From contig NZ_JPMX01000118.1 of NCBI RefSeq assembly GCF_000761485.1, forward strand, positions 1 to 64,000: a stretch of DNA of 64,000 bases, in the 5' to 3' direction. Positions 7,325 to 55,614 of this stretch are shown here, one piece after another; position 1 is the stretch's first letter; every line of letters starts with the position of its first letter. Made by a program: the position numbers and the translations under genes. A model generated the notes under the pieces. The model made no database searches. It saw only the letters and a list, made by a program, of their open reading frames with translations, and was not told the DNA's origin. Source of the DNA: Modestobacter caceresii. Its GTDB lineage: Bacteria > Actinomycetota > Actinomycetes > Mycobacteriales > Geodermatophilaceae.

Positions 7325-7380
7325 GGCCCCCTGCAGGGGCCCGCCACGAGCTCGCGAGTGGTGGGGGGCAGGGGGTCCTT
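7325..7380 (-). repeat. 3'-end hairpin element, copy 1 (after recG)
   Basis: Starting at the recG stop codon, the minus strand reads AAGGACCCCCTGC, a G/C-rich inner hairpin, then GCAGGGGGCC. The outer arms CCCCCTGC/GCAGGGGG pair perfectly. It is a member of a family with copies at 11589, 14864, 25948 and 55556. Here it lies between two genes of one operon, so it may act as a partial terminator or 3' stabiliser. Confidence 0.7.
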
Positions 7381-9569
7381 CACGCCTTCTCCAGGTAGGT
7401 GGCGCGCTCGTCCAGGGCCAGGGCGGCGACGGCGGCGGCCAGCTCGGGGTGGTCGGCGAGGCCGCCGCCCTGCTCGACCAGCGCCGTGGCCTCCACCCTG
7501 GCCTCGGCGATGAGCGCCTCGTCGTGCAGCAGGGACAGCAGCTTCACGTTCGAGCGACGGCCGGACTGGGCCGCGCCGAGGACGTCACCCTCCCGGCGGG
7601 TCTCCAGGTCGAGCCGGGCGAGGGCGAAGCCGTCGGTGGTGGAGGCGACCGCGGCCAGCCGCTGCCCGGTCGGTGAGGTGCTGGGTGCCTCGGTGACCAG
7701 CAGGCACAGCCCGGCGTGCTTCCCGCGGGCCACCCGGCCGCGCAGCTGGTGCAGCTGGCTGACGCCGAACCGGTCGGCGTCCATCACCACCATGACCGTG
7801 GCGTTGGGCACGTCGACCCCGACCTCGACCACGGTGGTGGCGACCAGGACGTCGACCTCTGCGGCGGCGAAGGCGCGCATCCGGGCCTCCTTCTCCTCCG
7901 GTGGCATCCGGCCGTGCAGCACCTCCACCCGCAGCGACGACAGCGGGCCGGTGCGCAGCCCCTCGGCGACGTCGAGCACCGCGAGCGGCGGGCGCTTGTC
8001 GCTGGTCCCACCCTTCTCCTCCGGTGGCGGCGCGCCGTCCGCGTCGTCCGGCCCGTCGTCGCCCTTGCCGCCGTCCTCGAGGTCGCCGATCCGGGGGCAC
8101 ACGACGTAGACCTGCCGGCCGGCCGCCACCTCCTCGCGGACCCGCGCCCAGGCGCGGTCCAGCCAGGCCGGCTTCTCCCCCAGCGGGACGACCGAGCTGG
8201 ACACCCCGCCACGGCCGGCCGGGAGCTGACGCAGCGTGGAGGTCTCCAGGTCGCCGTAGACGGTCATCGCCACGGTGCGCGGGATCGGGGTGGCGGTCAT
8301 CACCAGCACGTGCGGCGGCTTCGTGCCCTTGGCGCGCAGCGCGTCCCGCTGCTCCACCCCGAACCGGTGCTGCTCGTCGACGACGACCAGCCCCAGGTCG
8401 GCGAACTCGACGCCCTCCTGCAGCAGTGCGTGGGTGCCCACGACGATGCCGGCGCTGCCGTCGGCGACCGCGGCCCGCGCCTCCCGGCGGACGGCGGCCT
8501 TCTGCGAACCGGTGAGCAGCACCACCCGGGTGCCGGTCGGGTCCCCGTCGAGCTCCCCGGCACGCCCCAGCGGGCCCAGGATCGCCGCCAGGCTGCGGGC
8601 GTGCTGGGCGGCGAGCACCTCGGTGGGGGCGAGCAGCGCGGCCTGCCCACCGGCGTCGACGACCTGCGCCATCGCCCGCAGCGCGACCACCGTCTTGCCC
8701 GACCCGACCTCGCCCTGCAGCAGCCGGTTCATCGGCTGCTCGCGGGCCAGCTCGGCGGCCAGCTCCTCGCCGACCTCGCGCTGGCCGTCGGTCAGCGAGA
8801 ACGGCAGGGCGGCGTCGACCGCGTCCAGCAGCCCACCGCTGCGCGGTGGCCGGGCGATCCCCGGCTCGAGTGCGGCGGCCCGGCGGCGGGCGGCCAGCGT
8901 CGCCTGCAGGACGAGCGCCTCGTCCCACTTGAGCCGCTCGTCGGCCTCGTCGACCTGCTCCTGGCTCTCCGGCCGGTGCTTCTGCCGCAGCGCCGTGGCC
9001 AGGTCGACCAGGCCGTGCCGCTCGCGGACGGATGCCGGGATCGGGTCGTCGAGGAGCTGCTCCAGCGAGCGGGCGTCGTCCATCAGCAGCTTGACCGACT
9101 TCTGGACCACCCAGCTCGAGACGTCCTTGCTCGCCGGGTAGAGGGGCACCATCGCCCGCGCCCAGTCGTCGTCGTCTCCGGTGATGATGTGGCAGTCGGG
9201 GTGGGTGAACTGCTTGTCGCCCCGCCACAGCCCCACGGTGCCGGCGAACAGCCCCCACTCGCCGACGTCGAGGTGCGCGTGCCGGTTGTTGAAGAAGACC
9301 AGCCGCATGCTGCCCGCGCCGTCGCCGACGGTCACCTCGGTGAGCGTCCCGCGGCGCTGCTGCATCCGCCGGGTGCTCACGCTCTTCACCTGGGCCAGCA
9401 CGGTCACCCGGTCGCCGACCTCCAGGCCGTCGAGCCGGGTCATCTCCCCGCGCCGGGCGTAGCGGCGGGGGTAGTGCCGCAGCAGGTCGCGCACCGTGTG
9501 CAGGGCCAGCTGCTCGGCCATGACCTTCGCGGTCTTCGGGCCGAGCACCCGGGTCAGCGGGGTGTCCAT
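7380..9569 (-). CDS. recG: ATP-dependent DNA helicase RecG
   Basis: RecG remodels stalled replication forks and branch-migrates Holliday junctions. The 729-residue protein has the N-terminal wedge/OB domain (about 1-240), Walker A GEVGSGKT, the DExH-type box DEQHRFG, the TATPIPRT motif and the C-terminal helicase lobe with QLRGRVARG. An acidic Gly/Asp/Pro insertion of about 30 residues lies between the two helicase lobes (around 8000-8085). I chose the ATG at 9569; a GTG at 9581 overlapping the upstream stop is also possible. It follows the DAK2 gene directly, as in M. tuberculosis. Confidence 0.95.
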   Translation of the reverse strand: MDTPLTRVLGPKTAKVMAEQLALHTVRDLLRHYPRRYARRGEMTRLDGLEVGDRVTVLAQVKSVSTRRMQQRRGTLTEVTVGDGAGSMRLVFFNNRHAHLDVGEWGLFAGTVGLWRGDKQFTHPDCHIITGDDDDWARAMVPLYPASKDVSSWVVQKSVKLLMDDARSLEQLLDDPIPASVRERHGLVDLATALRQKHRPESQEQVDEADERLKWDEALVLQATLAARRRAAALEPGIARPPRSGGLLDAVDAALPFSLTDGQREVGEELAAELAREQPMNRLLQGEVGSGKTVVALRAMAQVVDAGGQAALLAPTEVLAAQHARSLAAILGPLGRAGELDGDPTGTRVVLLTGSQKAAVRREARAAVADGSAGIVVGTHALLQEGVEFADLGLVVVDEQHRFGVEQRDALRAKGTKPPHVLVMTATPIPRTVAMTVYGDLETSTLRQLPAGRGGVSSSVVPLGEKPAWLDRAWARVREEVAAGRQVYVVCPRIGDLEDGGKGDDGPDDADGAPPPEEKGGTSDKRPPLAVLDVAEGLRTGPLSSLRVEVLHGRMPPEEKEARMRAFAAAEVDVLVATTVVEVGVDVPNATVMVVMDADRFGVSQLHQLRGRVARGKHAGLCLLVTEAPSTSPTGQRLAAVASTTDGFALARLDLETRREGDVLGAAQSGRRSNVKLLSLLHDEALIAEARVEATALVEQGGGLADHPELAAAVAALALDERATYLEKA

Positions 9570-9580
9570 GGAGATCGCCA

Positions 9581-55003: not shown

Positions 55004-55528
55004 TCAGGCGGAGCGCTCGACCGGGCGCAAGGTACCGGCGCCGCTCATCGACCGCGGTCCGCGGCCCAGGGCGACGGTGCCGGACTGGGCCATCTCCTTG
55101 ATGCCGAGCGGTGCGAGGACGGCCAGCAGCGCCTGCAGCTTGTCCGGCGTGCCGGTGGCCTCGAGGGTGACGGTGTCGGTGTTGACGTCGATCACCCGGG
55201 CGCGGAAGAGCTCGGCGGTCTGCAGCACCTGGGCGCGGTCGGCCAGCGGCGCGCGCACCTTGACCAGCAGGAGCTCACGCTGCACCGCGGCGGTGTCCAG
55301 CTCGACGATCTTGATCACCTCGATCAGCTTGTTCAACTGCTTGGTGATCTGCTCCAGCGGCTGCGCCTCGGCGTCGGCCACGATCGTCATCCGGGACAGG
55401 TCCGGGTTCTCCGTCGGCCCCACGGCGAGGGACTCGATGTTGAACCCGCGCCGGCTGAACAGCGCCGAGACCCGGGCCAGGACACCGGACTTGTTCTCCA
55501 CCAGGACCGAGAGCGTGTGACGGGTCAA
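55004..55528 (-). CDS. ilvN: Acetolactate synthase small (regulatory) subunit
   Basis: IlvN activates IlvB and confers valine feedback inhibition. The 174-residue protein has the N-terminal ACT domain ([34 protein letters not shown]), a conserved DLSRMTIV region and the C-terminal regulatory domain. It is separated from ilvB by an 88-bp gap containing a 3'-end hairpin element. Confidence 0.95.
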
Positions 55529-55555
55529 CGGGGGCCTTCTTCCTGCGAGCTGGTC

Positions 55556-55614
55556 GGCCCCGTCTCAGGGGCCCGCCGCGAGCGGAGCGAGTGGTGGGGG
55601 GAGAGGGGGTCCTT
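55556..55614 (-). repeat. 3'-end hairpin element, copy 5 (ilvB-ilvN gap)
   Basis: Two bases after the ilvB TGA the minus strand reads AAGGACCCCCTCTC, an inner hairpin with CGCGGCGGG, then GAGACGGGGCC. The outer arms (55558-55566 and 55601-55609) pair with one mismatch. Unlike copies between convergent genes, this one is inside an operon. Confidence 0.7.

Follow-up and report, generated by a model that had tools for sequence, protein, structure and literature searches.

The window analysed here, a stretch of 64,000 nucleotides from the actinobacterium Modestobacter caceresii (contig NZ_JPMX01000118.1, positions 1 to 64,000), carries five copies of a dispersed, palindromic repeat of about 58 bp, extending up to about 75 bp when a GTTCCAGCACGTCACC-like 3' extension is present, each of them placed at the stop codon of a gene. 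A sequence-only reading of the window had pointed out five stretches beginning with AAGGAC or AAGGAAC beside a TGA, always in the direction of the gene and behind unrelated hosts. When the sequences were re-read, all five proved to be as described, and Pfam assigns the host genes to RecG, L28 (RpmB), DUF3515, Aconitase_C (leuD) and a TPP enzyme (ilvB). The repeat begins at offset +2 from the stop in the copies at 14864, 25948 and 55556, while in those at 7325 (recG) and 11589 (rpmB) the AAGG shares its first A with the stop TGA.

The recG copy (7325..7380, minus strand, 74.5 bits) thus begins on the last base of the recG stop codon (7380-7382). On the same strand, the start codon of a gene that we take from its Pfam family, Cons_hypoth95, to be rsmD-like (6764..7318) lies 6 nt past the element, and it is followed by a gene that is, again presumably from its family, coaD-like (6282-6767). 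Behind rpmB (11398-11589), on the plus strand, the element spans 11589..11644 (40.4 bits), overlapping the A of the stop codon, and comparison with the family consensus identifies 11645..11662, directly behind it, as the right half of a second element. The stretch 11589-11662, previously read as a single unit, does hold the element, but is a composite. A separate perfect hairpin with a 15-bp stem (11689..11722, plus strand), found in relatives with and without the element, is likely the terminator of rpmB. The copy at 14864..14921 (plus strand, 82 bits) starts 2 nt past the stop of the DUF3515 gene (14292-14861) and faces a convergent gene at 14933-15589. The copy at 25948..26005 (minus strand, 82 bits) starts 2 nt past the stop of leuD (26008-26613), and a convergent NUDIX gene (24975-25943) ends 4 nt from its far end. 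Finally, the copy at 55556..55614 (minus strand, 65.1 bits) starts 2 nt past the stop of ilvB (55617-57470), between ilvB and ilvN. It forms, with a 30-nt tail, an 89-bp insertion (55526..55614, minus strand) that is missing in the close relative G019 and that supplies the TTG start codon of ilvN (55004-55528).

Read on the gene strand, the layout consists of the stop codon, mostly two bases, AAGGA with a run of five C behind it, a variable triplet and a C, followed by two unpaired bases, an inner hairpin, five unpaired bases (consensus CCCCT) and the matching outer arm leading into GGGGGCC. We derived the consensus from 119 copies, namely 51 matches of at least 45 bits in five syntenic blocks and 68 of 74 others (the six left out were a duplicate and five that were weak or partial). 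The feet of the consensus are NGAAGGAC and GGCC, and its two ends are only imperfectly complementary to each other. A GNTCC continuation beyond the element is present in 29 copies, its fullest form being GTTCCAGCACGTCACC. Some arrangements depart from the single copy: a direct tandem of three elements spaced by about 50 nt (L049:1402-1558, genus g7), a nose-to-nose pair between convergent genes in which one element is intact and the other cut short (L028:9958-10032), and a case in which AAGGACCCCC stands 2 bases past a TGA with a different hairpin behind it (L005:5001).

The compensating changes noticed between the arms of the window copies extend well beyond them. At pair 11-51, the 14 distinct copies used for training our model show UA in eight, GC in three, CG in two and AU in one, with no half-changed copy. 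Over the whole structure, these 14 copies show 28 cells changed on both sides, where column shuffles give 8.2 and slid controls no more than 3; in 71 distinct copies the figure is 141, compared with 31.9 for shuffles and 18 at the most for slid structures.

The element is a true family, far beyond chance matches. In the M. caceresii genome (4.95 Mb in 139 contigs, with a GC content of 74%), the first 10 bases of the element have 36 exact matches versus 5 for the reversed pattern; judged by eye, these 36 comprise 26 intact elements, one cut short and nine that are something else. A covariance model built from 15 gap-free copies (14 distinct) yields at least 127 matches at E<=0.1 (118 with E below 0.001) among the best 150 of 10,309 candidates scored, and 133 matches at E<=1e-4 in the closed genome of a relative (G021). 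Among the 59 genomes searched, carriers make up 32 of the 35 from the Geodermatophilaceae, M. caceresii included, and there was no match in the other 24, which are spread over 15 further families of the order. When 396 genomes sampled across the phylum were searched with 14 candidates scored in each, a depth at which low-copy carriers could be missed, M. caceresii was the sole match. With a strict pattern, two carriers from the Geodermatophilaceae could be named: Blastococcus sp. DSM 46786 and Geodermatophilus obscurus DSM 43161. GC-rich hairpins arising by chance, or a compositional artefact of gene ends, might be suspected at a GC content of 74%, but the genome search refutes this idea: the sequence is conserved at unrelated loci, covariation exceeds its controls and the other 395 genomes of the phylum sample, at 14 scored candidates each, gave no match, all of which leaves such an origin practically out of the question. 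Searches of Rfam above the gathering score found only tRNAs in the window and nothing at the element; at E<=1 they found nothing in four loci and, near one window copy, sub-threshold matches of which none was convincing over the element.

Density is uneven, with no match in C91:1-180000 (L072-L080) and one further on, versus 19 in C118:1-284000, and G021 is uneven too. In sampled stretches of G021 the strand of the element roughly tracks that of the genes, the replication origin not having been located. Four members of the family are without the element or nearly so, namely G027, G029 and G031 (of genera g6, g8 and g10) and, with five matches, G025 (g4); these element-poor genomes should be helpful for finding the gene that spreads it.

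Testing the offset from the stop codon reveals a narrow, non-random placement. A stop trinucleotide lies at offset -1 to +3 in 104 of the 119 copies: TGA at +2 in 74, TAG at +0 in 11, a shared A of TGA in 10, and TGA at +3, TAG at +3 and TGA at +0 in three each, the remaining 15 showing none. In the five syntenic blocks, where we examined 63 matches (the nine weakest of 72 were left out), 51 of the 53 with a called gene sit -1 to +3 from its stop, and several of the 10 others visibly lie behind a short gene missed by our crude gene caller. The host stops, TGA in 90 copies and TAG in 14, match the usage among called genes of the blocks (865 and 110, p=0.52), which makes the gene end, rather than the TGA trinucleotide, the anchor. 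In the M. caceresii block, 130 TGANG sites are intergenic without being stops versus 71 at stops, and the former are hardly used. Convergent gene ends are enriched at element sites (33/63 versus 302/974, p=0.0007), the next gene being co-directional at 30 of the 63. Some copies even sit between genes of likely operons, as in recG-rsmD(-coaD) and ilvB-ilvN. A further perfect hairpin of at least 9 bp occurs within 200 nt downstream in 26 of the 62 copies of at least 34 bits, for example behind rpmB, a count for which other gene ends did not serve as control.

From the covariation, the sequence-only reading had concluded that selection acts on a folded RNA, in the transcript of the host gene. Our results do not support this: the kinds of mismatch fit the complement, and the sense strand has no T tract. 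With the structure taken to 23 pairs, we tallied the cells that are not Watson-Crick over 140 distinct copies: 408 favour the complement (163 A.C and 245 C.T, which read as G.T and G.A there), 37 favour the sense strand (29 G.T and 8 G.A) and 36 fit neither. This supersedes a preliminary count over 18 pairs (25 G.U versus 65 A.C, 35 of the latter at one pair). Four positions dominate, with A.C at 20-39 in 93/133 copies, A.C at 23-36 in 35/135 (and G.T in none), T.C at 25-34 in 117/131 and C.T at 26-33 in 119/131; Watson-Crick pairs stand at the two apical positions in rare copies (6/131 at 25-34 and 7/131 at 26-33). Because these A.C and C.T mismatches become G.T and G.A, the complement can prolong the inner stem through two adjacent G.A pairs, then GC and CG, up to an apex of 2-3 nt. 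Tandem G.A pairs in a CGAG/CGAG context are a stable sheared motif in both DNA and RNA. What had been described as a TCGC-type loop probably forms base pairs on the complement. The apex motif is kept at 27/29 convergent sites versus 14/22 co-directional ones (p=0.013). Predicted folding is in line with these counts, the complement being lower in 115/119 copies with RNA parameters (means of -38.8 versus -32.1 kcal/mol) and in 105/119 with DNA parameters.

This asymmetry bears directly on the proposal that the element works in the mRNA of its host gene, where a hairpin at most 15 nt from the stop would shield the message from 3' exonucleases or stall the terminating ribosome, as proposed for REPs (repetitive extragenic palindromes) of Escherichia coli. 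The sense orientation, the distance to the stop (-1 to +3 nt for most copies) and the copies between co-directional genes speak for it, as does the precedent of REPs lying within 15 nt of stops (PMC12306157). However, the sense strand folds less well than the complement in nearly all copies and its frequent mismatches would be badly tolerated by RNA; moreover, among the five window copies, whose sense RNA folding gives z values of -1.7, +0.9, -3.0, -1.2 and -0.2 against shuffles, a single one clearly stands out. We therefore deem a role in the sense mRNA unlikely.

The flanks of the stem are as asymmetric as its mismatches. At least three T in the 8 nt after the stem are found on the complement in 105/119 copies and on the sense strand in 10/119. 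Taken over a 9-nt tail, the count on the complement is 109/119 copies versus 119/925 stops without element, and the mean T content of this tail is 3.5, against 1.25 on the sense strand and 1.67 at stops without element. By comparison, other perfect hairpins of at least 12 bp in the blocks (39 hairpins with 51 tails) hold a mean of 1.98 T per tail, with at least three T in 19 tails. In the commonest class the tail on the complement reads UUCNUCA, whose final UCA is complementary to the stop codon. In Streptomyces clavuligerus, three U in 8 nt marked the Term-seq terminators with least read-through (PMC8269248). A stable GC stem (with the mean of -38.8 kcal/mol given above) together with at least three U in 8 nt, as expected of an intrinsic terminator facing the antisense direction, is found in the same 105 copies.

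It may be, then, that the functional hairpin forms on the complementary strand and not on that of the host gene, whose stop codon the element adjoins. The element would be an intrinsic terminator for transcription coming from downstream, be it from a convergent neighbour or as antisense transcripts, and the antisense transcript would be released at the edge of the coding region. Sense transcription would meet no T tract and pass, making of the element a one-way gate. Copies of it would spread between gene ends within the Geodermatophilaceae by some copying mechanism. An antisense terminator would explain together the anchor at the stop, the one-sided tail and the tolerance between operon-like genes. 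Judging from sequence features, we tentatively favour a copied, REP-like repeat that acts as an intrinsic terminator facing the antisense direction and ending at the stop codon, with a confidence that stays a little short of even because the count of tails overlaps in part with the conserved head and the strand signal comes down to four positions. The fuller proposal, a mobile family of directional antisense terminators that is anchored to either common stop and lets sense transcription pass even within operons, is possible but more doubtful. In both, termination, its directionality and the movement of copies by some mechanism are things that we infer.

Several observations weigh against an antisense terminator. 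The count of tails is partly circular, since the family's conserved AA and G lie within the tail and helped to find the copies. The tail is also only moderately U-rich, and the -1 base on the complement is a C in 96/119 copies, where a terminator would prefer U. Outside the four dominant positions the strand asymmetry vanishes (38 versus 34 cells), and the signal at these four may reflect one inherited consensus instead of many events. Covariance models of both strands score nearly alike, and therefore model scores do not decide the strand. Lastly, the source of antisense transcription at the 30/63 co-directional sites is a guess, and it is at such sites that the apex motif is less kept.

An ordinary terminator of the host gene, working in the sense direction or symmetrically in both, would account for placement at gene ends, a stable stem and the enrichment at convergent sites, and terminators without U are discussed for GC-rich genomes (PMC8269248). 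Yet the U tract expected after the stem is lacking on the sense side in all but ten copies, and a sense-direction terminator is hard to reconcile with copies located inside the operon-like pairs recG and rsmD-coaD or ilvB and ilvN, or ahead of the further hairpins counted above; we consider it very unlikely. Of the two labels first proposed for the element, REP-like or terminator-like, the former stands in its wide sense and the latter is unlikely as far as the sense direction is concerned, given the absence of a sense T tract and the operon-internal copies.

That the family is mobile-like, as had been suggested, agrees with its dispersal, its conserved structure at gene ends and the identical copies at unrelated sites. 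Comparison of the M. caceresii block with its counterpart in G019, 97% identical over a 4-kb test stretch, shows 8 shared sites, 8 occupied only in M. caceresii and 8 only in G019, absence meaning here no match of at least 34 bits. Of 25 further M. caceresii copies tried, 24 could be placed and 13 of them are shared, which brings the shared copies to 21/40 in total. Several sites in relatives hold a shortened hairpin, a different hairpin or scar-like sequence, so that absence also covers decay. Comparison of these sequences shows that copies turn over fast, with gain and loss between close genomes. In G019, mini-forms keep the outer stem and lose the inner hairpin (L119, L108, L113 and L110, at sites 1, 2, 10 and 37); they perhaps represent a route from repeat to ordinary terminator.

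The clearest gain is at ilvB-ilvN, where G019 reads TGATGACCC with the genes overlapping as TGATG, and in the window 89 bp separate TGATG from ACCC. As to the two marks of a miniature inverted-repeat transposable element (MITE), terminal inverted repeats and a target-site duplication, the ends of the element pair imperfectly, as stated above, and a 2-bp duplication of TG is possible at this site, the single clean empty one examined. Similarly, where the recG copy of the window precedes rsmD, another relative (G001) has a plain stop-start overlap. Moreover, 58 identical bases occur at two loci of M. caceresii and at a site of G001 where M. caceresii has no match, and a 56-base pattern with three free positions recurs in 16 of the 35 family genomes, in three genera. 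Copying between sites is thus well supported by the sequences.

The same facts, however, can be seen in another light. Since folded single-stranded DNA would yield the same strand asymmetry as RNA, the main rival explanation is a mobile hairpin whose complement folds as DNA and is recognised, with its foot TTCNTCA, by some transposase or recombinase, any effect on transcription being incidental. Presence and absence at the same stop in close genomes, the clean empty site at ilvB-ilvN and the 58-mer shared by three sites, one of them without counterpart in M. caceresii, all suit such a hairpin. Nonetheless, copies behind TAG stops lack the TCA foot, yet their share matches that of TAG stops in the blocks, and the non-stop TGANG sites of the M. 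caceresii block, more numerous than those at stops, are hardly used. The search for a mobilising enzyme brought no support either. The Y1 transposase domain PF01797 was found in 0/22 genomes, 19 of them in the family, with 5/14 controls positive, in a search of transposase families that covered Y1, IS91 and IS110; the integron integrase TIGR02249 exceeded its cut-off in 0/10 genomes, but in 0/14 controls too, with sub-cut-off matches in both. The IS91 transposase was found in 0/20 genomes, its controls being silent as well, which leaves that search without weight. We are inclined to consider a single-stranded DNA hairpin rather improbable, while keeping it as a serious competitor. IS110 was tried as a required partner and rejected: it occurs in 12/20 genomes and is missing from six that are rich in the element (G001, G014, G015, G021, G030 and G032). 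Two genomes, G008 and G024, each contain several equal-scoring copies of the IS110 family, perhaps recently active.

Among known systems, the REPs and the bacterial interspersed mosaic elements (BIMEs) built around REP-associated tyrosine transposases (RAYTs) come close, being short extragenic palindromes in high copy, sometimes beside stops or supplying them, with turnover between strains; GTAG REPs supply stop codons and REP feet are tagged by GTAG or CGTC (PMC12306157 and PMC3733652). The repeat described here is likewise a short extragenic palindrome in high copy, as its abundance in M. caceresii and in G021 indicates, which makes it a REP in the wide sense. It differs in its narrow distance to the stop, its larger two-part hairpin, the better folding of its complement, the absence of a Y1 domain from the genomes searched and a foot whose consensus is neither GTAG nor CGTC; where TAG stands directly in front, in 11 copies, it is the stop of the host gene. 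Mycobacterial interspersed repetitive units (MIRUs), another actinobacterial dispersed repeat, insert at start codons, with an open reading frame coupled to the next gene (PMC12548453). The copy in the ilvB-ilvN stop-start overlap, which supplies the start codon of the next gene, resembles them; insertion into such an overlap is seen there and is probable at recG-rsmD. Most copies are elsewhere, though, and the element differs from MIRUs in being a hairpin tied to stop codons, many copies of which are not followed by a co-directional gene. Bidirectional terminators between convergent genes share with it a strong GC stem, a U-rich tail and the preference for convergent sites, but the element has one tail only, facing into the host gene, belongs to a copied, dispersed family and occupies co-directional sites too.

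The attC sites of integrons are a further point of comparison. They lie right behind a stop codon, fold from one strand and keep unpaired bases in their stem, three features that the element shares. By eye, however, it shows no core boxes of the attC type, and it occurs as single copies at conserved chromosomal genes. The sequence-only reading knew no description of such an element, and we met none in the open-access literature, either for this family or for stop-anchored palindromes. REPs near stops, GTAG REPs and MIRUs are its nearest kinds; lacking the RAYT and GTAG features, it would be a variant of the dispersed palindromic repeat.

Whatever the function, the element carries a general lesson, namely that covariation alone does not tell which strand folds and that the asymmetry of mismatches can be informative. 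Besides, two genomes about 97% alike that differ at about half of the compared sites constitute a natural experiment. If our favoured reading of an antisense-facing terminator is true, these very GC-rich bacteria would possess a ready-made, genome-wide set of one-way transcription gates, which would provide a direct route to test the restraint of antisense transcription in actinobacteria, and the Geodermatophilaceae would offer an example of a repeat that spreads while tying itself to stop codons.

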